Source: Fragilaria crotonensis
Taxonomy: Eukaryota > Bacillariophyta > Fragilariophyceae > Fragilariales > Fragilariaceae
Direction: 5' to 3'
Assembly: GCA_022925895.1 (NCBI GenBank)
Contig: JAKSYS010000149.1
Coordinates: forward strand, 41,582-105,581
DNA length: 64,000 nucleotides
Each line of letters begins with the position of its first letter. Within the stretch, counting starts at the first letter, position 1. The position numbers were made by a program, and so were the translations under genes. Below the pieces are notes generated by a model that was not told where the DNA came from, did no database searches, and saw only the letters and a list, made by a program, of their open reading frames with translations. Positions 48,605 through 64,000 of the stretch are shown here, piece after piece.

Positions 48605-50918
48605 TACTGATAATCCTCGATTTTATCGTGAGTTGAAATCCTTCACCGTTAACGGTGAGGGATGGCCTTATATCAAGAAATTTGAGGGTCACAGGACGGG
48701 CGAAAGGCTTACCTGGCCTTTAAGACGCAGTGTGAAGGCATAGCCTCAAAGATCACCCGTAAGAATAGGGCTTATGCTTCAATAGCGAATGCGAGCTATA
48801 CGGGTTCACGCCGCCAATTCAGGTTCCAGGACTATATAAATACCCACCAGACAGCCCATAACGATATCCTTGACTGCGACCCCACCAAAGCTGTGCCCGA
48901 ATCAAAAAAGATTTCAGACTTCTTGAAGGGAATTACCGATCCGAAACTCTAATCACCCGTGTGCGTTGTAGTAGGCAATCCAAAGATGCTTAATGACTTC
49001 CAAGCATGCCAGCAATACCTCTCCACCACAGTTGAGAATCGGGCGACCCTAGAGAAGCGCAAGGAGCAAAACATCTCAGGATTGAAGAGCCGCACCGATA
49101 AATCTGACAAGAAGAAAGGAGAAAAAGGGAGGCCACCAAATTCGAGTGTGGATGACGCCACAGGCAAGGAATTTGGCCGTGGGGCACACAAAAAGAAGAG
49201 CAAGAAGGATAATGCCTGACAAAAGGACGTCACCGTCGCGATGCTATCGAGGAGCGTATATTCAGTTAACGATGATGCAATGCAGTCAGCCGACCATCGA
49301 TCAGGCAGATGTGAGATGGACTCTCACGCCGACACTTGTGTGGCCGGTAGCAATTGCGTAGTACTTGAATATACTGGGCGCAAAGCAGAGGTAGAAGCCT
49401 ACTTGCCAGATTATCCCTCGAAACGAATCCCCATCGCAACGGTGTCGACGGCATATGATTGTCCTACTACTGGTGCAGTGTTTAATTAATTATAAATGAA
49501 GCTCTTTACTTCGGATCATCACTTAACTTCTCACCACTTCTTTCTCCCAACCAACTCAGAGACAACGATTTGTGTGTTGATGAACGTCACCGTCAACACG
49601 CACAGGACTCTATCTTTGGAATACACGTCCCGTCCGATCAGCTGACGACCCCCTTCATTCTCGACGGCGTCGTCGCCGGATTCGACACACGAGTTCCCAC
49701 TCAAGATGAACTGGACGACACAAGTCTCCACGTTGAGTTGACCTCGGACGTCGAATGGATCCCGGCATCTTTCGCGCACTCGCAGGAGAGGAATCAACAG
49801 CTGACCCTGTCAACGAACGAGTGTCAAGGTTGCAAACTCGGCGCTTAAAAGTTCTCGCATCAAAGGAAGGAAAACACCGAATCAAATGTTGCCTTCAAAC
49901 CCTGTCCGATACCCAGTCCCTGTTCGAAATAGAACTCGCCAATGAGGTCAACATGCTGAACACTGGTGATCCTGTCTTAAAGAGGGTAGCAGCTTTGACG
50001 ACCGGAGGAGATGATACACCGAACAGGAGGACATTTGCGATCAGGACTGGCGCCTCGACCTCGGATGTGACCCCCAAGAATGTTGCAACACCACTCTCGA
50101 GCGGTTATCGACCGGAACTAGATCTCTCCCCAGAACTTGGGAGCAAACAGCTGAATTACTACCAGGGTCTAATCGGTGTGCTACGTTGGATATGCGAAAT
50201 TGGAAGAATTGACATACTTATGCCCGTATCGATGATGTCACGCTATCTCGTGTCAGCTCGATAGGGACATTTAGAACAACTATTCCATATATTTGCATAC
50301 CTCAAGCATCACACGCGATCAACTATGGTATTTGACGACACAATCCCAGTATTTCGAGGCGAACGCTTTGTGAGATGTGATTGGTCGGAGTTCTATCCTG
50401 ACGCAGCTGAGGCAATCTCAGAGAATATGCCGAAGCCGCGAGGTAAAGAGGTCGTTATGTTCTGTTTCGTCGACGCTGATCACGCTGGGTGGTGCAGAGA
50501 GACCAGAAGATCACATTCGGGAATCATTATATTCGTGAATAGAGCACCGATTATGTGGTTTTTGAAGCGACAAAACACGGTAGAGGCATCGACATATGGT
50601 TCCGAATTGCTTGCGATGCGCATATCAATCGAAATGATTGAGGGTTTACGCTATAAATTGCGTATGATGGGTGTTCCATTGACCGAAGAGTGCGCAGCTT
50701 TTTGTGACAATTCAGCGGTCGTCACAAATACTCGACCAGAGGCAACGCTCACGAAGAAGCACGCAGCCATAAACTTCCATAGAGTGCGTGCGGCAATAGC
50801 TGCGGGGACAATTAAAGTGGCCAAAGAAGGGACTCAGACAAACTTGGCGGATATTCTGACAAAAGTCATGCCAGGTCCGAAGATGAAGGAGTTGCTCGAA
50901 CATACTATATTGTGGTAG
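48605..50918 (+). pseudogene. Copia (CoDi-type) internally deleted copy B
   Basis: Gag with FLKGITDP retained (48915-48950), Lys-rich tail, then an aspartic protease active-site region DSHADTCVAGSNCVVLE (about 49318-49365) that copy A lacks. It continues to pre-integrase (EIELANEVNMLNTGDP) and at about 50089 jumps to the end of the RT/RNase H junction (TPLSSGYRPELDLSPELG). RNase H follows: FCFVDADHAGW, MWFLKRQNTVEASTYGSELL, FCDNSAVVTN and ADILTKVMPGPKM, stop at 50916. Integrase and most RT, about 2.4 kb, are missing. A TAG stop at 50262 and frame changes make it inactive. Confidence 0.87.
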
Positions 50919-52940: not shown

Positions 52941-53497
52941 ACCATATCTCAATCAATATAGGTCCAATCACAACGTTTGAAATTGATCCAGTGTCGTGAA
53001 AGCACAACGAAGAGAACTGCCGCCTCAGATTAGTACTGAGTACCTTTTTTGAAAATCACATTATCTATAGACTCGGTGCTATTATCGAACTCCAGTCGGA
53101 TTCCCGACTAGATTTCATGACCTCCTTTCGAACCATATCTCAATCAATATAGTAGGTCCAATCATGACATTTGAAATTGATCCAGAGTCGTGAAAGCATA
53201 ACGAAGAAAACTGCCGCCTCAGATTAGTACTGAATTCCTTATTTGAAAATCGCATTATCTAGACTCGGTGCTATTATCGCACTCCACTCGGATTCCCGAC
53301 TAGATTTCATGACCTCCTTTCGAACCATATCTCAATCAATATTGGTCCAATCATGACATATAAAATTGATCCAGAGTGTTGTGAAAGCATAACAAAGAGA
53401 ACTGCCGCCTTAGATTAGTACTGAGTAGTACCTTATTTGAAAATCGCATTATCTAGACTCGGTGCTATTATCATCGCACTCCAGTCGGATTCTCGAC
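52941..53497. repeat. Tandem repeat, three copies of ~192 bp
   Basis: Units begin ACCATATCTCAATCAATAT at 52941, 53132 and 53324 and end with GGATT(C)CCGACT. They lie between the convergent 3' ends of the two Harbinger-like genes; the last unit runs into the transposase stop codon region. Confidence 0.9.
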
Positions 53498-55127
53498 TGC
53501 TGGGGTTTTCAATCGGCGAGGCCATACAATATCATTGCGCAGCCACATGATATCAAAGTGCTCCACAAGTTTCTTTATAAAATATGCTTGTGGAAGCTTT
53601 CTCACAACTCTAGCCCCATTCTCCGTCGCACCAATGATATCGGCATTTGCATTCGGATCAGGTCCAGCTGCATCTCGCACCTGTTGAGACACCTGTCCTG
53701 GTCCTGGGCCAATGCCCGAGGAATCATATTGACGGATCTGCCGTGAGTTAAGCCGTTGCATGGCAAATGGTTGCTGTGATGATGGCCTTGATGCAAGTAG
53801 TAGTGCATCCTCGGCACTGTGCATACCAAGCTCGCCTTCCCAATCACTGGCAACGCCATTTTCCCAGCAGTGTTCGTCAAGTCCATCCACCTCAAGCAGC
53901 CAATTGTGCAGTGCACAGCAGGTCAACCAAACTTTATCTGGTTGTGACACACCGTGGAGTCGAATTCCCGTCTTCAGAATACGCCATCGGCCCTTCATAA
54001 TTCCAAAAGTGCATTCAACGTCTTTGCGCATAGCAGATTCGAGCCATTGTGACCATCGTTGCTCCTTCTGGGTAAGTGGCGATTTTGTTGGAGGGATTGT
54101 GGTAGACCACCTAAGATAGCCATTGTCAACAAGTAGATAGCTATCCCTCCTGTACCTGACTTCTATCACAGAACCATTCTCATTGCGTTCACAAAGAGTA
54201 AACTCCACATCGTTGAGAGGGTTGTTACCGTTTTGAAGTCAAAGAGCAAATTTGTCAAACAAAATGAGGGTCTTGTCGTTCCATCTGCATGGATGTCCAG
54301 TGGTGGTGGATAACATGCGCCGTCTATGGTTCACGGTGACATTGTATGTTTTGGCAGTCCCAGGCAGCTTCTTTGCTGTGTGTTGATTCTTCAGCCGGCT
54401 GCTGCACTTCTCAATAAGGACATGGGTAGCATCGCAAGAGCCAATGCACCTGGGAAACCTGCTATTTGCATCTCACGCATATGATTGTGTGCATCAGTCA
54501 ACGTTAATGGTTGCAAGACATACTTCTTAAAGATGGCTGGAGCCAACTTCAATAAAGCAGTGGAAAACTGTCGATGGGTTTCTTCATCAATGCCTGTGCT
54601 CTCTTCAATATCATCAAACGTCCATCCTCTGCCGAGGTATCGTAGAGCTCAAGTATCATAAGTGCAAGTGGAGACGATGGCTTTCCGCAAGCATCCCTTG
54701 AAGTCCACCGTGGAAACCAATTCTTTTCTTTAGATTCGGCAAGTAACTCAAGGAACTGCAGGAAGGGTAAACGAAATCGGCGACGGAATTTCTTTTGGAA
54801 AGTGCGCTGGGTTGTTGCTGGGTGTAGGATGTAAAGCAAGTACCAGTTTGACTTGAATGGTGTCAAACGATGAAGTTGACCATCTGCATCAATATATTCA
54901 CAAACATTGGTACGCCCTCGCTTTCTAGTTGCTGGTTGCTGCAAGGGTGTTGTACTTGATGGCTGAGCAGATGGTGGCACCACCTCATCAACAAGTAAAT
55001 CACGACAACAATCAACCATGTACCTTTGGTACCTCACGAACTTTGAAATATCAATTAAACCATTGGGAGACATACATGCCAGGATAGTCTTGGGGCGAAG
55101 TTCATCAGAGTCCAGGAATTGATTCAT
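53471..55127 (-). pseudogene. PIF/Harbinger-like DDE transposase
   Basis: Starts at ATG 55127 (MNQFLDSDELRPK). N-terminal part: RKRGRTNVCEYIDADGQLHR and FRRRFRLPFLQFLELLAESK. The catalytic domain is split: ASCDATHVLIEKCSSRLKNQ lies in a different frame near 54440-54400, and LLVDNGYLRW, KDVECTFGIMKGRWRILKTG and CCALHNWLLEVDGLD in the frame 54208-53471. The three acidic residues (SCDA, VDNG, VECTFG) match the DDE_Tnp_4 layout. Damage: a frame change near 54580 and an in-frame TGA near 54238. C-terminal ~100 residues low complexity. Confidence 0.82.
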
Positions 55128-55463
55128 AGTTGAACTGTGAGGTGATGAGGGCGCTCCGCCAGCATGTTGGGCATTGTTGGCTACTACTAGTAGCTACTAC
55201 TGTAGGACTATCAGTAAACAGAGGTTGGTTGGGTCGAACAAGTCATGATGGAATCTCTCGTTTCATTTTTTTTGTTTGTTTCAATAAAACTGATCTCCTG
55301 TTTTATTGGATAATGGGATATGAGTGCATTTCAACTAAACTGATTCGCATTTTTATTGAGATTTGGGCTCCCATTGGGACCGATAAATTGTCGGTGAGTT
55401 CTGTATGGAGTGTCATCCTTACATACAGGCAGTGAATCATCCCTTTTCAAACACGATGATTTC
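55128..55463. other. Right subterminal region of the Harbinger-like element
   Basis: Upstream of the transposase start; contains two diverged blocks of TCAA(T/C)(A/T)AAACTGAT(C/T) at 55278 and 55329, then the right end at 55383. No gene. Confidence 0.5.
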
Positions 55464-55466
55464 TAA

Positions 55467-56248
55467 GAGCATCCCCACCGCTGGAGCGAAATCTGAATCG
55501 GACATATTGGTCTCGAGCCTTTAGAAACCTATTTTGGACATATTGGTGGTATCTTTCTCGCACCGCGTGCAGATTTTTTCGAGCAGCACGATGAAATTCT
55601 GACCCCCGCTCTGTAAATTAGACTGCTTTTTCTGTCGGATTTTGTGGTATTCTACCTACAGAATGTGGAACTTGACGTACTACCAGTACCGGCAAACTAG
55701 AGGTTGCGTCCCTAATGTGTGTGATGTACAGGGTTTAATAGCATATACAGTAGTAGTACATTGATGTCATACCGTTGTTACGAAACAAAATCATCGACAA
55801 GGATGCTGGCACGTATGTAAAGAACAGGCAATGCGTACCTCCGCAATCGTACCACTCAATTTACTACTACATACGCATTCATTGCTTCGACGTCGTTTCA
55901 ATGGTGTTACGGTGCTCGTCCGGGATGATGTCAATTTTTTGCATACAGATCACAGACAAACTGACATGAGTCACAGTGTGAATGTGGCATCCGTGATAAA
56001 ATCCTATTGGTTAATTTTTTATTCGAATGGGTCGAATAGGACAAAACGAGGGGCGCCAGAATCTGGACCCGGCTCGAGAATTCAGCAATTTGGTTCTATT
56101 CTCGAGCCCCAATTCAGATTTCGAGCCCCTCGGGCGCGAAATCTGAGGTATCGAGCCCAAGCGGTGCCATGCATTTTGGACAAAATTGTCGACGCAAATG
56201 GTCCTATCGGGCCATATCTCAGATTTCGCTCCAGCGGTGGGGATGCTC
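55467..56248. mobile_element. Harbinger-type MITE, 782 bp
   Basis: Ends GAGCATCCCCACCGCTGGAG (55467) and its inverted copy at 56219-56248, about 30 bp, flanked by TAA on both sides (55464-55466, 56249-56251). A 3-bp TAA duplication is typical of PIF/Harbinger. Internal GAAATCTGA and TCGAGCC words recur inward from both ends. No coding capacity; open frames inside are chance. Confidence 0.85.
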
Positions 56249-56323
56249 TAACAGCGCATTTTGTACAACTTACCAGACACTTCAGAGATTCCGGCATCCC
56301 AACACTTTTGTCTTGTATCATAC

Positions 56324-56897
56324 GGATTCTGCCTTAACACTGACAATACAACAGATAACACGAAAGTATATCGATTCGACTAGTTAGACCTAGCCACTCG
56401 CAATATCAGGAGACCCACTGATTGGTCCCTGATGTCGCAGTATTCGTTGGTGATATCTCATCGTCCCAGTCATATAGGTAGTATAACTCGGACGGTGTAA
56501 TGGGGGAACAGTAAAACAGAACTGGTATACTGTCACGCAGTATCACCGAACTGCGTAGCGTTACGACAGTGGTGATCGGCACTCCAGCAGTGCATCATGA
56601 CAGTACAACAGTACTGCAACAGTATATATCCCTCCTCAGGTCATGCATCAGTGCATGGGTTCGCGAAAGCCCTTCTCAAGACCTGAAAGGGTTGTTCTCC
56701 TTTAGCCCCCCTTAAACCCTCGCTCGTCGGACCTAGGTCAACGGCCGAGTGGGATTTAAGTTGGGAGGAAATATACCTGCTCGCATGCATCGTCTCGTGA
56801 GAGACTATCATTCGATCGATCAGTCCAAGATCTGAAACTTTCAGGTCCGAGTTATATCAATCGATCTTATAACCCGGACCCTGAACTCGAAACCCCC
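56324..56897 (-). repeat. Terminal block B2 of the Ngaro-like element
   Basis: 574 bp, near-identical and same orientation as 57375-57942 (568 bp); starts GGATTCTGCCTTAACACTGA and ends CTGAACTCGAAACCCCC. The copies differ by a few single-base and two-base indels (for example GTCACGCAG here against GTCGCAG in B1). Confidence 0.93.
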
Positions 56898-57374
56898 TCG
56901 GAACAGAAATGGATCAACCGAGGAAAGAGAAAGGGATGGTGGGTGGGAAATTAAAAACTGCTTGATGGCTTCGCTAGCGATAGGCCTTGGATGTACGGTC
57001 CGAAGATAAAAGCTAGGGCCAAAAAGAGTGAACAAAGAATTGTCCTGCTGTCTTGAATTCATTGCTTGGTCGTGAAGAGTCTCGATCAAGTAACTGGTAA
57101 CCAGGTTCGACGAACCCGGTTGCCTCTTTGAAAACAGCCATCGAGTAACCTTTGTGGCTTGGTTCGTGCTTCCTCAGAAGCCACTCCTCGTATTTTCGTT
57201 TTGCTCCTTATTTTGACCATCTGTCCGTGACACAGAGTCATGATAGAATCTCAGACCTGATGGTAATATAAGTTAGCGAAACATGAGAGAGCAAGTCGAG
57301 TCGCTGTACGATCTTAGTTACCGGTGTACTGTCGTTTGTCTCACAGTATCCAACTTGACCTGTAGGTACGCGAA
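56898..57374 (-). repeat. Putative A2 block between B copies
   Basis: 477 bp of noncoding sequence separating the B repeats. Includes an inverted repeat GGTAACCAGGTTCG/CGAACCCGGTTGCC at 57096-57124. Predicted to match an A1 block at the element's other end outside the window. Confidence 0.6.
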
Positions 57375-57942
57375 GGATTCTGCCTTAACACTGACAATAC
57401 AACAGATAACACGAAAGTATATCGATTCGACTAGTTAGACCTAGCCACTCGCAATATCAGGAGACCCACTGATTGGTCCCTGATGTCGCAGTATTCGTTG
57501 GTGATATCTCATCGTCCCAGTCATATAGGTAGTATAACTCGGACGGTGTAATGGGGAACAGTAAAACAGAACTGGTATACTGTCGCAGTATCACCGAACT
57601 GCGTAGCGTTCGACAGTGGTGATCGGCACTCCAGCAGTGCATCATGACAGTACAACAGTACTGCAACAGTATATATCCCTCCTCAGGTCATGCATCAGTG
57701 CATGGGTTCGCGAAAGCCCTTCTCAAGACCTGAAAGGTTGTTCTCCTTTAGCCCCCTTAAACCCTCGCTCGTCGGACCTAGGTCAACGGCCGAGTGGGAT
57801 TTAAGTTGGGAGGAAATATACCTGCTCGCATGCATCGTCTCGTGAGAGACTATCATTCGATCGATCAGTCCAAGATCTGAAACTTTCAGGTCCGAGTTAT
57901 ATCAATCGATCTTATAACCCGGACCCTGAACTCGAAACCCCC
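57375..57942 (-). repeat. Block B1 of the Ngaro-like element
   Basis: Direct copy of 56324-56897; adjoins the element's coding part, 200 bp beyond the recombinase stop. Confidence 0.93.
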
Positions 57943-58141
57943 ACCACGAGAACCACCAGACCTAGCCCAAATTTTGCCAGGGATTGTTTTGCTACCTGCT
58001 GTGATTGTGAAAAGCATTTGAGCGGGAGCAAACTTTCATCTAGAAGTTTACCATCACGAACCAGGGGCACTTCCTGATTCTTGATGCAGCGTTTTTTACT
58101 TCCTCGGCTGCAATTGGCGGGGTCACCTGGTAATCCCTCTT

Positions 58142-59494
58142 TCACATGGCATCCGTATATCTCATAAACGCCTCCTTCACTAAATTGATATCCACGTAAT
58201 GCTGATCAATGGCGTGGGATGTCTTGTTGGAGCCCGCTGCCTCCTTCTTCTTCCATCTATTCACCACGTAGCGGTCGGCCTCAGACACTTTCATAGCTAC
58301 CGCTCTCGATTCCGAACCTCGACGGAAAGACCGAAACACATTGAACTTGTCTGGCAAATCGCCTGCGTCATCGATATCAATACCGAACAAACCGGGGTGC
58401 TCTTCGTAGATCTCTCCGAGCACCTGAAGAAACAGTTCGTTCATCTCAGAAGTAGTGAGCTGATATCCCTCTTCATTTACAAATACCGGTCCGGTCGATC
58501 GATTCGACGCTCGATGCACCGCAAGCATTCTTCTGACCCACTGTTTGACTCGGATTCCTGAGCCTGTAATGCCTCTAGACATAAGCAAGTGTTGTTTGAC
58601 GTGATGTTCTCCTTTGAAACGCCCCAAGAGTGGAATTACAACTTCGTCTTTCGTTTCCACATGGTATTTTATCAAACCCTCTAGGTCTGCCATTAGTCCC
58701 TCAGGGCTTCGCAACGACAAGACAAAACATATGCAAAAATATCCCCCAGCGAGGATCCATCTCTGCCGACCAGCCAATTCCAGTTCCTGCTTCGCTCGCT
58801 CTTCGGTCCTTCGCAACAATTCGTGCATCAATTTTACACTTATGGCCTGGTTTGGACGCCAGTCTTGACCCATCCGTTTACGGCATCCTAAAGTGAATCT
58901 CTGGAACCACAGTGAACCGCAAGCGTCTCGTCCGATCCGCTGATAAGACTTCCCGTCGGCATCCGTTAGTACGATTGGGTTTGCGTTTGCGTCTCGCGCC
59001 GCCCTGACTTGGTTAGAGTAGGATGATCGGAATCGCCTTACAGTGTCCCATTGCTTGTGCGTTTTTGAATACCTCCCAGAGCCTAGAGAGGACACCACAA
59101 TCTGGATTGCCACTTCGTATCCGCAGTGATCTATACTCGGGAGCGGCCCGGGTGCTTCAGCAGCTCCTCTCATACCCATGCTTCTTGACAAATTCAACGC
59201 CTCTCTCGCCTTCGCCGTGTTAGCGTCAACGGTTGACCGTGCTCGACTCCAGAAGGCATCCAGGATGACCCGTCGGATGCAGGCTAAAGCGAACACATCT
59301 TTGCTGTCCGTTAAGATTGGCTCATGATCAAACAACTTCCCAAACACGCAATAATCGCATTCGAAAGGTACCATCAGGTTGTCTCCGTTGCGAGCCGACG
59401 TGAAACGACCTATGTCAGATTTTCTTGGTGCCCATCCCGATAAAATTCTGTCTTCGTCATCAGCCTCTGTCATCGGTTGATCTCCCATGGCCAT
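58142..59494 (-). CDS. Tyrosine recombinase of the retrotransposon
   Basis: Intact 450-residue frame from ATG 59494 (MAMGDQPMTE). C-terminal catalytic region: first Arg in FVLSLRSPEGLMADLEGL (R262), a Lys-containing hairpin region (RFKGEHHVKQHLL), second Arg in NVFRSFRRGSESRA (R391) and the nucleophilic Tyr in IDQHYVDINL (Y433). In place of the usual His of the H-x-x-R box there is Arg, a variation known in eukaryotic tyrosine recombinases. N-terminal half resembles the SAM-like core-binding part (SYSNQVRAARDANANP). It would integrate the circular or linear cDNA in place of an integrase. Being open while RT is decayed, it may be the youngest surviving function or luck. Confidence 0.85.
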   Translation of the reverse strand: MAMGDQPMTEADDEDRILSGWAPRKSDIGRFTSARNGDNLMVPFECDYCVFGKLFDHEPILTDSKDVFALACIRRVILDAFWSRARSTVDANTAKAREALNLSRSMGMRGAAEAPGPLPSIDHCGYEVAIQIVVSSLGSGRYSKTHKQWDTVRRFRSSYSNQVRAARDANANPIVLTDADGKSYQRIGRDACGSLWFQRFTLGCRKRMGQDWRPNQAISVKLMHELLRRTEERAKQELELAGRQRWILAGGYFCICFVLSLRSPEGLMADLEGLIKYHVETKDEVVIPLLGRFKGEHHVKQHLLMSRGITGSGIRVKQWVRRMLAVHRASNRSTGPVFVNEEGYQLTTSEMNELFLQVLGEIYEEHPGLFGIDIDDAGDLPDKFNVFRSFRRGSESRAVAMKVSEADRYVVNRWKKKEAAGSNKTSHAIDQHYVDINLVKEAFMRYTDAM

Positions 59495-59656
59495 GAAAAA
59501 CTCTGGCTCATCACTTGAAGTATAGCAACTTCCGCACCACAGGTTCCGACATATCTGCGAGGTCGATACAGCGTGTCCAAAATTCGCGCAAAAGATTGCT
59601 TGCGTCCATTGGCGTTTCTTTAAACACCTGACGCAACTGCCTTCCCATTGCGTACA

Positions 59657-62379
59657 TCATCTTGGGGTTCCGCGAAGCTGCCAAGGCTTAACTCTGACAA
59701 AGGGAAAAATTGCAATTAGCAGCGGTTCGTGCATCGCAGTCAGCCACATAGCTGAACCAACGGGTACCTCAAAAACAAAATCAGCCGCTTTAAACAAGTG
59801 TCTCAACCACTGGCTGGCACAAACGCGGGCACAAAGCGGGGAGGATCGCTGTCGTTTTATTCGAGCCTTTCTCATCTCAGACAACGCTACCTCCGCCGCC
59901 ATTGGAGCGGGTGCCCAAACATATGTTTTTCCTTTGCGAGAAATGACAGGTCGCGAAAATCCGTCGACCCCGCAAATCCATCCCTCGATATCGTGCCCTT
60001 CCTCAAACCATCCCATTTCCTTTAACAAAACCGCATCCCTTCCAGCCCACTCTCGAATCCAGGGCACTAGACTCTGGGCCGACCTCTCAACCGCTGACAG
60101 ATGAACTGGTACAAACGCACTCATTGCTTCACCATCCATCACTCCTTGACCAAGAAAACCTCGAGACACGCCGTCAGTCCCTTGGGCAATCATTCTGGTC
60201 CCTGCAATGTGAATCACGTTAATCTTTATTCCGACTCTCATCGAGAGGGCTTGCAGTCGAACCACCAACTCAACAATTTTGGCGACGTAGATGATCCTCT
60301 GGACACGCATGATTCCACAGTAGAGTTGTCGGTGAACATGAACACCTCTGAGTGATCCAAATTGCCTTCCCGGCCTTCTTCCTCCAGCGATTCCACAACA
60401 TTTGTAAACTCCTTCCAGTTCGACGACTCTGGGTCCTCCTTCGAACCCCATACTCCAATTCGAAAATTCAACCCCGACCCACAAGTGAACGTGGCCCCAA
60501 GGCCTGTTCCCGAAGCGTCACCAAAACCATATACGACGGTGATAACGTGCTTGGATCTCACGCCGACCACTGGTACCGAAGTTGGAGCGAAGATTACTGC
60601 CAACGCGCCCACGTCGCTTGCCAGACTAATGCTCGCCTTGACAAGGTGAGGAGCAGCTGACTCCTCTTTTCCGAAAAGCGCGGTGTCCAATTCCGTCTCC
60701 GTGATTTCGTCATTAGCAAATTGTGCAAACAGAAGTCGCTTCCACCGCTTATCCGTCATCTTCCAATCTCCCTCATCCCGTTGCGTTCGCCAGGAATTCA
60801 TGGTCAAATAAAACCCTTTTAGAAAGGGTGTTACAACATCAAACGTCATCGCAAGGTGATTGAGAAACCCGGTTTCCTTCTCCAACTGTTTTCGATCTAG
60901 GACTGGTCGGTCATCAGAGTCAGCCTCAATTTTGGCCACCAGACCCTTCACCATCGCCTTTCCTTTGTTCCACTTTTCTTGAGACACGGACTTGGAGATG
61001 ACTGTAGGCGTGATCTTGAAGATTGTTCCTGTCCAAGCTCCTGCATTACTTTGAGATGGGGGGCGAAATTTTCGGGTGCATCCTGCATTCCCAAGTATTG
61101 TATTCTGCTGGCAAACTGCCGATGAACCTTGTGGCAGTTCTCTTTTGAGAATCCCGTGATTCTCACGTCGTCAACAAACGTCAATACATCGCCCGCTACC
61201 ACACTCAGGTCAGACCGCCACTTCATCACTTTGGGCTTCAATGGATCGTATCTACTCATTCCTGGCAGGTTCAGCCGAATAGAATCGTATCCCATCGGGT
61301 TGTCTTTTAAAGACGGATCTCCCCGAGCGAACTCCTCCCCCCAATAGTAATATCTTACCGCATTGTATGGACTGGGCCTCATTCCCATGAATAGACGCGT
61401 CCACCTCAGCATGCTGACGGCTCTACTTCCGCCACAGGACTTTGTTTCCACTTCCACTCCAGAGCACCGTCGAAGTTTCTCCTCCATCGGGAAATTATGA
61501 AACATCTCCCCAAAGTCCATGTCGGACATCCATGTTTGGAAAGTCAGTAACATCGCTGCCGAAGAAGCTGACGGCAAGAAGAAGTTCGGTGCCCATAATG
61601 TGTCATTCAATCCACAGGATGTACCGTCAAATACAACTCTGATATCCTCGTCGCCCTTTGGAACTGCGAAGTAGTCAAGCGAGTTACTCACATGACCGAC
61701 TGACTCCAGATAGTAACGCCTTTTCATTCCCTCGATCTTGTCCTCTACCAACGCTCTGACGTTCTGGCTTAACCATCTTCTTCAACCGCTTGCGACCCAC
61801 AGGAAGAGAACTGAGAATGTACGACCGCATGCCGTCCCGAGCCGCCACTCTTTGCTCCTCCCCATTCCACCGCCAGAATATAAGCGCGGATCCATAAGAC
61901 CATTCCCACCACTTACTCTGTAGCAGCTGCTGAAGGACCAATCGACCCTTTATGATATCCCGGTCCAGCTCGGCATAATCAATTGAGGGCTCAGACTGGG
62001 CCCTACCAGCACTACCACCCCCCTCCTCGTTCGCTGATGTCAACGCTGACACACGAACCTTCCTCCGCTTCAACATCGGCTGAGAGGCCGCTATGTCGAG
62101 CGCCGCCGTGGCATGGCGTAATTCAGGATCAGCCCATGTCACCCCATATTGGCGTCGCAGATAGGTCAAAAAGGACGACACAAGACCACGCTTCCATCGG
62201 CGGAGGCCAAACTCTTCAAAAATCGCAATTGTGGCCTGTCGACATGGCAGAACCAGCATGATGCGCTGATTCCACGGATGAAAGTCCACCGTAGCGTTGT
62301 CGGATTTTACCGCTTTGTGAGCAATAGCGGTTTCAGTCCAGGACCCAGGGAGCCACTTTTGCAATTGTGGTATCCACAC
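59657..62379 (-). pseudogene. RT-RNase H of the retrotransposon, frameshifted
   Basis: Reads from upstream WWEWSYGSALIFWRW (about 61900) into RT: YFAVPKGDEDIRVVFDGTSC, TRLFMGMRPSPYNAVRYYYW and the active site VAGDVLTFVDDVRITGFSKE (about 61180, VDD in place of YxDD). RNase H follows: VYGFGDASGTGLGATF, NWKEFTNVVESL, FMFTDNSTVES, then HIAGTRMIAQGTDGVSRG, giving the D-E-D-D set. Frame changes occur near 61745, 60985 and 60270, so the gene is broken at three or more places. The order RT, RNase H, then recombinase with no integrase is diagnostic for DIRS-class elements. Confidence 0.83.
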
Positions 62380-62427
62380 GATCCAACGGCAGCGCCGGAC
62401 TCGACCGATGACCCTTCGGCAGCAGAA

Positions 62428-63406
62428 TCACGCAATTTGCGACGACCTTGACCAGCCCCTGCCTGCGAATCTGGGTCGAACATCCCAACTACCCCATCGA
62501 GTACCACCCGAAACATCTGAAGGGGACCATAAAGTCCTCCATTCCTGTTTCCCACGGGATGAAACTGGGTAGATCAAAGGCGTGTGCCAGCTCTGCGGCG
62601 ACCAACGGTCGCTGTCCCCAACCGGTACGTGAGAATCCACTAGAAAGACCACCGGAAGATGCAGTTTGTGCATCGACAGGTGATCAGCTACCGTGTAATG
62701 AGGTTCTCCAAACGAGGGGTTGCACAGTGGGCCGGACAGAGTATTTATGATGTGTCCAATCGATCGGCGAATAGGGTCCTCAGGGATCACGAGTGACCCA
62801 AGACCCGCCGTACAAAACATTCCCACGGCTTTGGTGACCCCTCCCACCTTGATGTGCGCAACGCTCGTCCAATTCCAGACAGAGTCCTCAATGTTGGGTT
62901 TCCTTCGACCGCCGTCCGACATCCAGCCAACCATCGGTGTGGATCTCGAACCCTCGAGTTGCCGTAGAAATTTCAGTGTGCCGCTGACCAACCACAACAC
63001 AACCGATGGCGGGTTGCAGCTTGACTCATCGCCAGACATTATTACGAGTTTGGATCTCACCCATTCCCGTAGAAAAGTGATACTGACGAAGACGAACCTC
63101 GTCTGTATCGGTAATATGGATCTCTGACCATTCTGCCAGCCTAATGGTCCACAACCAAAACGGCCACCCCTCAAATACGACTCCACAAGCGCGAGCAACA
63201 ATTGCCTCTCGATGGCCTCGCTTACACAGCTTCAGGCGCTCATAAACTGGTGGATCATTTCCACTAACACTCCTGTTCAGGAACACACGATCGCTTCGTT
63301 CACGTTGATTGACAACAAGAGACCCTACACCGTCTCTGATTTCGGGTAGCGACTTGCTGCTACTAAGATTATCCTTCTTCAACCCGATAACCTTCTCATT
63401 ATCCAT
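62428..63406 (-). pseudogene. Unassigned segment between gag and RT
   Basis: Two overlapping frames (63406-63026 and 63201-62428) appear to be one protein broken by a frameshift near 63110: ERLKLCKRGHREAIVARACG, then WMSDGGRRKPNIEDSVWNWT, HIINTLSGPLCNPSFGEPHY and PVVFLVDSHVPVGDSDRWSP. DIRS-class elements often have an extra domain here (Dam-like methylase in some); I cannot identify such motifs and leave function open. Confidence 0.45.
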
Positions 63407-63433
63407 CCCGTGTGTGTCGTGTGCTCCTGCTTG

Positions 63434-64000
63434 TCACCTGCTCTCAAGCTTAGTGACTCGCTTTGTCAATTCAGCGAGTCCTTTGATTGCTGAGGATCCG
63501 GCACTCGCTGCGCCGTCAGCAATCGATCGTGCTTTTGTCACGTCTGATACCGCCTTATCAACTTGTGACTTTATTCCACTCATCATCGTCTCCATGCGCT
63601 CAACTTTGTCAAAACCCGAATTGGTAGCCAAGAACTTCACATATTCGGCTGAAATAGCCGGATGATTTTCAAAATTGACTTCCAAGTATGTGGCCATGAT
63701 GTCATGAGTTCGAAAGCAGGACCACAGCACATGTGCACAAATGGATGCCGGCTCCTCTACGTTCATTGCCACAACAACTCCCTCTTTTGGGGAAAACAAG
63801 TCCTCGCAAATACGATCCAGAATCTTCATGGTCAGAGACCACCCTTGCTCCGCCGTAAACTTGGATGCGGACACCAATTTGTCATAAATTGTGTCCACAA
63901 AAGCCAACATCTGCGTCAGGAAAGTAATCGTCGCGTTCAAGCACATAGTTGCTAACAACTGACCCTTTGGATCGCCGCCGAGAACATATCCAATGTCTTG
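63434..64000 (-). CDS. Gag-like gene of the retrotransposon, partial
   Basis: Open from the window edge (QDIGYVLGGDPKGQLLATMC) to the stop at 63434, 188 residues visible; the start is outside. Helical sequence with a C-terminal coiled-coil-like stretch (GLAELTKRVTKLESR) preceded by an Ala/Ser-rich linker. Position at the 5' end of the element suggests Gag; no zinc knuckle is visible in this part. Confidence 0.6.
   Translation of the reverse strand, partial: QDIGYVLGGDPKGQLLATMCLNATITFLTQMLAFVDTIYDKLVSASKFTAEQGWSLTMKILDRICEDLFSPKEGVVVAMNVEEPASICAHVLWSCFRTHDIMATYLEVNFENHPAISAEYVKFLATNSGFDKVERMETMMSGIKSQVDKAVSDVTKARSIADGAASAGSSAIKGLAELTKRVTKLESR

Follow-up and report, generated by a model that had tools for sequence, protein, structure and literature searches.

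A probable Ngaro-like tyrosine-recombinase retrotransposon with split direct repeats in the diatom Fragilaria crotonensis

Ngaro elements, as described for Cafeteria burkhardae and Xenopus in the available parts of two reports (PMC8547959, PMC9210276), follow the layout A1-[ORFs]-B1A2B2, where ORFs are open reading frames. They carry gag, reverse transcriptase/RNase H (RT/RNase H) and tyrosine recombinase (YR) genes in this order and encode no methyltransferase. Among other stramenopiles, the excerpts available place elements of this type in Ectocarpus (PMC3145265) and Cafeteria (PMC8547959). For diatoms, the accessible text of the sources gives counts without description, namely 14 copies of DIRS-order elements in Phaeodactylum (PMC5859163) and a "Gypsy/DIRS1" class in Chaetoceros (PMC8613185). 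No description of a Ngaro-type or split-direct-repeat element in a diatom was found in the open-access literature as far as its text was available, Repbase and subscription papers lying outside the search. Here we report on a stretch of 64,000 nucleotides from Fragilaria crotonensis (C58:41582-105581, hereafter the window). It very probably holds a Ngaro-like YR retrotransposon that was active very recently, present here with its 3' three quarters, whose full layout is A1-gag-RT/RNase H-YR-B1-A2-c-B2. The element seems to be copied via RNA and inserted by a phage-style recombinase.

Encoded on the minus strand, the element is cut off at position 64000. Because the window stops where contig C58 (105581 bases) stops, the 5' end of this copy is out of view. 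At the 3' end, the terminal copy of repeat B (B2, 56324..56897) has its outer end at 56324, which is the 3' terminus of the element, while the internal copy B1 spans 57375..57942. Both ~570-bp copies had been proposed by the initial annotation at exactly these coordinates, just 3' of a recombinase ORF, and an open frame is indeed present there at 58142-59656 on the same strand. In a global alignment of 574 columns, B1 and B2 showed no substitution and five small indel events, a similarity far beyond chance. The 477-bp block between them (56898-57374) had been taken as unique. It does occur only once within the window, but comparison with sister copies revealed a composite of A2, the 428-bp internal copy of a second repeat A (56947..57374), and a 49-bp spacer c (56898..56946). 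The junction of B1 and A2 carries a CCT core (57374..57376, AGG on the plus strand), the presumed recombination site, and a C-rich box, CCCACCCACCATCCC, marks the boundary of A2 and c (56933..56947); all these features read on the minus strand.

A whole-genome search with the 477-bp block retrieved a near-identical, complete copy of about 9.95 kb on C353. As its A1 repeat, 430 bp of the block recurred there with 100% identity at C353:12282-12711, directly upstream of gag, at a distance of 12 bases from an ATG that is in frame with gag; A2 of the window copy is identical to it. A block copy at this place had been set beforehand as the check on the predicted A1-ORFs-B1-A2-B2 architecture, and that architecture holds in the C353 copy as well as in five further, diverged elements. 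As the 430 bp recur before gag and the 49 bp of c do not, the layout is A1-gag-RT/RNase H-YR-B1-A2-c-B2, with the three genes in this order on one strand. Within C353:1-16000, repeat B was found at the 3' end only and not before gag. The outer ends therefore differ, with A at the 5' end and B at the 3' end, instead of the same repeat at both ends as in long terminal repeat (LTR) elements. B does not bracket the genes, just as the initial annotation had argued. Only direct repeats were present within the C353 element, with no inverted terminal repeats, which rules out a DIRS1 element with inverted repeats. The single inverted pair in the neighborhood of the window copy (55451-55496 and 56219-56264) lies outside the element.

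The same organization recurs across the genome. A protein search with the window recombinase gave 57 matches, and the best 30, taken with their loci, resolved into 25 distinct recombinase copies. Full-length matches were 100% to 52% identical to the window recombinase. In 17 of the 25 copies, the 1.5 kb available downstream of the recombinase holds a B-type direct repeat pair. These 17 loci are not all independent, since C478/C760/C33 and C643/C67b are close copies. Both ends were fetched for six elements chosen because their A block was found twice (C353, C133, C307, C109, C383 and C67). A1 and A2 were 99.3-100% identical over 398-464 bp in all six, and a gag relative with 29-100% identity to the C353 gag follows A1 in each. 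In the stretches covered, most elements had repeats 98-100% identical to each other (C643, 96%; C760, 84%), while between the C383 and C67 types A and B reached only about 74-80%, as compared via solo units nearly identical to C383. Such likeness within diverging elements would be expected if both repeats are renewed from one template in every cycle. Even the far element on C549, with 31% recombinase identity, has the same 3' layout of B1-A2-B2 with a C-rich box. Its lineage (C549 and C547) stands at 31-32% recombinase identity, and the C547 copy ends directly after B1.

Forms without genes were found as well. Solo A-c-B units on C98, C10 and C360 have one left flank in common, B being shortened on C360, and a further unit on C252 shows piecewise similarity to A and B of several families. 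Solo units can arise from recombination between A1 and A2, whether homologous or by the recombinase itself. According to the parts of the sources at hand, comparable solo AB units occur in the host genome of the Cafeteria Ngaro elements (PMC8547959), and SIRE of Trypanosoma cruzi amounts to A2-(about 30 bp exclusive)-B2 of VIPER (PMC6681497). At C456:24600-26700 an extra A-c-B unit stands in tandem after B2, which looks like the addition of a second unit at the B-A junction.

An unoccupied counterpart of the C353 site made the insertion product readable. The left flank of C353 matches C829 at 98.2% over 1644 bp, and C829 then continues, without the element, into sequence that matches the right flank at 87.9% over 1580 bp in a gapped alignment; C829 is either an allele or a recent duplicate of the C353 site. 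The unoccupied site reads GGTAATGC-AGG-CATC and the filled one GGTAATGC-AGG[element]AGG-CATC. The C353 copy went in at CCT, and apart from the shared core no target sequence was duplicated, the outcome expected of a tyrosine recombinase. The insertion is recent, for a near-identical unoccupied site remains. The target of the C383 element is likewise found unoccupied, with CCT, in a local repeat beside it, so that integration without target-site duplication at a short junction was seen at both C829/C353 and C383. Two paralogous unoccupied stretches for C109, about 10% diverged, agree with simple insertion, their core not being clean. No empty site was found for C133, nor for the window copy, whose flank is a high-copy repeat (58 genome matches for the 600 bases before the element).

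The termini of further copies followed a similar rule. Read in the direction of the element, the core is CCT, and the internal B1-A2 junction contains a single CCT in all six elements, that is, both termini fused with one CCT. Seven sites, comprising the six elements and a solo site, could be compared at their 5' ends: the core there always finished in CT, with C in the first position at four sites, G at two and T at one. At the 3' ends of nine sites (those seven together with the window copy and C456), the first base was always C and the second was C in eight, with a variable third base. For these counts, C98 and C10 were treated as one site because their flanks are in common, the C360 end is truncated, and C549 and C547, whose A1 was not seen, were left uncounted; in the latter two B ends in ACC, and the C549 junction reads ACCT. 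A single exchange within the core between circle and target would leave this pattern of core bases. The model published for DIRS1, as far as given in the available part of PMC3266345, proposes a circle that recombines into the target at a 3-bp junction and leaves the target unduplicated. That model fits, for it yields the outcome seen here, and the difference lies in the inverted terminal repeats, internal complementary region and methyltransferase domain of DIRS1.

A replication cycle consistent with these observations can be proposed. RNA would be made from A1 through the genes towards B2, and gag, RT-RNase H and recombinase would act on it. As such an RNA would lack the outermost parts of A1 and B2, the internal B1-A2 junction would serve as template during reverse transcription and link B to A again, and the product would be a circle with the end of B next to the start of A at CCT. 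The recombinase would then exchange strands between the CCT of the circle and a target containing C/CCT, so that the circle opens and nothing of the target but the shared core is duplicated.

The presumed recombinase is encoded by the window ORF at 58142..59656 on the minus strand (504 amino acids from stop to stop). Its motifs follow the order R316, K348, R442-x-x-R445, W468 and Y487, and every one of these residues is invariant in all 15 aligned YRs. The catalytic tyrosine is present, and the histidine of the canonical HxxR is replaced by arginine in 15/15 aligned sequences. The Cafeteria Ngaro recombinases are reported to carry HxxR instead and are assigned to PF00589 (PMC8547959, available part), whereas the recombinase here has no Pfam match. 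Since some bacterial YR groups have another residue in place of this histidine or conserve it only weakly (accessible text of PMC8138268), arginine at this place may be read as variation and not as exclusion. The assignment as a tyrosine recombinase rests on the motifs and the integration products, because Pfam and PDB searches gave no match. Single-sequence structure prediction was too poor to use, with a mean predicted local distance difference test score (pLDDT) of 33.6, and among viral and GTDB contigs 46 and 54 stretches with the pattern were found, none of which was confirmed as a relative.

A second abundant recombinase group was observed in the same genome, with 62 weak PF00589 matches at E<=1, none of them over the cut-off. 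At four of its loci (C40, C22, C722 and C665) the canonical HxxR is present as THSIRSG...GRW, and upstream of the recombinase lies a stretch that we take to be RNase H-like. This group is probably another YR-retrotransposon lineage.

The spacer between A2 and B2 contains a conserved signature. In the six elements with known A1, c measures 47-67 bp and starts at the A2 edge with CCCACCCACCATCCC or a close variant. Each of the 17 loci with a B pair contains the pattern CC[AT]CCCACC once, 35-66 bp ahead of the point where the B2 match begins, and the eight loci without a pair lack it. Variants of the 15-mer are present in C109 and C350. Genome-wide, the exact 15-mer has 23 occurrences compared with none for a reversed control: 16 at elements (two in C456), four at solo or solo-like units (C10, C98, C360 and C252), two at A-block loci known by similarity alone (C496 and C596) and one on C797. 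The latter (C797:29561-29575) shows no similarity to 13 element references. With 20 of the 23 hits in elements or solo-like units, a host RNA primer exactly matching the 15-nt box is unsupported. In the far lineage, C549 has CCCACCCACCC just before B2. Such a spacer with a conserved box is unmentioned for Ngaro in the available parts of PMC8547959 and PMC9210276. The box is the best-conserved non-coding piece seen and marks the inner edge of A. From its sequence and position we infer that it may set this edge, by priming or by a strand stop, much as the primer-binding site and polypurine tract fix the edges of LTRs. Whether it acts as a dedicated cis signal of split-direct-repeat retrotransposons, fixing the inner edge of A in every cycle in one of these ways, is a tentative idea, which we consider rather unlikely.

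Two other accounts of the locus can be given. Two long direct copies around a unique block beside a retroelement could be left by an ordinary LTR retrotransposon to whose 3' end a solo or tandem LTR was added. This is scarcely credible, given that the complete copy has A and not B upstream of gag, that the same layout is found in 17 of 25 copies, and that comparison with the unoccupied C353 site reveals nothing duplicated except the shared CCT; for C353 itself, where B is not upstream of gag, such an origin is refuted. The window copy might also be a decayed relic with a frameshifted RT and fossil repeats, as the initial annotation implied. The RT-RNase H region is in fact split over several frames in the window (about 63433-59657), and the C353 copy is frame-broken as well, between RT, RNase H and YR, so that a working RT cannot be claimed for either. 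Against decay, a comparison of the two copies over about 7.7 kb shows 2 substitutions but 30 indel events. Among the indels, 25 are bases missing from the window and 22 fall in runs of two or more equal bases, and the repeats are hit too. Such an indel-heavy ratio argues for sequencing or assembly error more than decay, and the frame breaks mostly look like indels of this kind. Relic status drawn from the frameshifts is rejected, and the recent C353 insertion with its persisting unoccupied site also speaks against a relic, which we regard as improbable.

A closer question is to which branch of the DIRS order the element belongs. The initial annotation's name Ngaro is justified by structure, that is, by the repeat layout, the gene order and the lack of a methyltransferase match. 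We nevertheless call the element Ngaro-like and not Ngaro, because PAT-like and VIPER-like elements share the repeat layout and our classification is by structure. A PAT-like or VIPER-like element with the same split repeats would have in its favor that A1...B1-A2-B2 is common to both (available parts of PMC6681497 and PMC4157794) and that SIRE, matching the A2-B2 region of VIPER, has its own exclusive block, like c here. The VIPER/SIRE system of T. cruzi has split direct repeats too, though shorter ones (A 173 bp, B 219 bp; PMC6681497, accessible text). In the present element the YR lies 3' of RT, whereas VIPER elements have it before RT. For a PAT-like element a methyltransferase would be expected, and a Pfam search at E<=1 of the RNase H-YR stretch from the window, C353, C133 and C478 found no match to one. 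This lack of a match is weak evidence, since these proteins are divergent. Taken together, a place in the PAT or VIPER branch appears unlikely. From the Cafeteria Ngaro elements, about 6 kb long in the part of PMC8547959 available, the present element differs by its size of about 9.95 kb. CryptonS of Phaeodactylum is likewise a YR-encoding mobile element in a diatom, but a DNA transposon with 5- or 6-bp terminal direct repeats in place of long split ones (PMC3212892, excerpt).

Several observations weigh against a recently active, Ngaro-like YR retrotransposon in the window. As the 5' end of the window copy is beyond the contig end, only its 3' part is in view, and the RVT_1 match of its RT (E 5.6e-4), though in favor of a retroelement, falls below the Pfam cut-off. 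The recombinase found no match in Pfam, PDB or the phage records searched, a profile of 15 recombinase sequences found none in PDB, and the 62 other places that PF00589 picked out in the genome do not include this recombinase family. When the profile was compared with another YR of this diatom that is weakly detected by Pfam, RSFRRG...NRW did come into register with HSIRSG...GRW, which speaks for a YR, but the score of 20.5 exceeded the best of 30 column shuffles (18.4) only modestly, with an hhalign probability of 1.4%. Against six phage integrases it scored 18.1 (best shuffle, 18.4) and thus not above chance, while the other diatom YR reached 29.9 against the same six. The arginine in place of the HxxR histidine was found in 26 of 27 loci scanned, the damaged C90 copy having glutamine. 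Eight of the 25 recombinase copies have no B pair within 1.5 kb (C223, C30, C255, C533, C244, C218, C414 and C90), C223 and C414 among them with an A match on the 5' side, and from the remaining 27 weaker matches C549 and C547 alone were looked at. The 3' core of C109 reads CAG, with A as its second base, and C829 may be a duplicate and not an allele, in view of its 87.9% right flank. Finally, in the proposed cycle the intermediates (RNA and circle), the use of B1-A2 as template and catalysis by the recombinase are inferred.

The remaining features of the window can be described briefly. On the minus strand, the element begins at the contig end with the C-terminal 188 amino acids of gag (63434..64000), which runs past the contig end and forms an open frame of 801 amino acids in C353. 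It is followed by the N-terminal part of ORF2, whose frame is interrupted in the window copy (61684..63433), the reverse transcriptase core with an FVDD motif (60948..61781), a region at 60238..61170 that we take to be RNase H-like from its motifs, Pfam having given no RNase H match, and an open stretch between RNase H and recombinase that is part of ORF2 (59657..60517). Beyond the 3' end, the stretch 53474-56264 holds a DDE_Tnp_4 / Plant_tran transposase ORF on the minus strand, presumably of PIF/Harbinger type, together with the inverted repeats mentioned above. The Ngaro-like element begins 59 bp past the second arm. Open frames at 49737-50918 gave no Pfam match at E<=0.1; we assume a resemblance to a Copia-type RNase H region. 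The diatom host named by the initial annotation agrees with the silicon transporters of the genome (19 PF03842 matches, 18 over the curated cut-off, best E 4e-193), three matches standing side by side in one open frame of 1456 amino acids on C97.

Replication and insertion of split-direct-repeat retrotransposons are still largely a matter of models. If the C-rich box does act as proposed, it would, together with the RxxR recombinase, set these elements apart as a distinct diatom lineage that replicates by a chemistry of its own. Several resources come together in the genome of F. crotonensis: copies of recent date, an unoccupied counterpart from which the exchange point can be read, solo A-c-B units, one element carrying an additional unit, and a boundary motif in every inspected element with a repeat pair. 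With these at hand, the B1-A2 template model and the recombination core are therefore directly testable in an alga.

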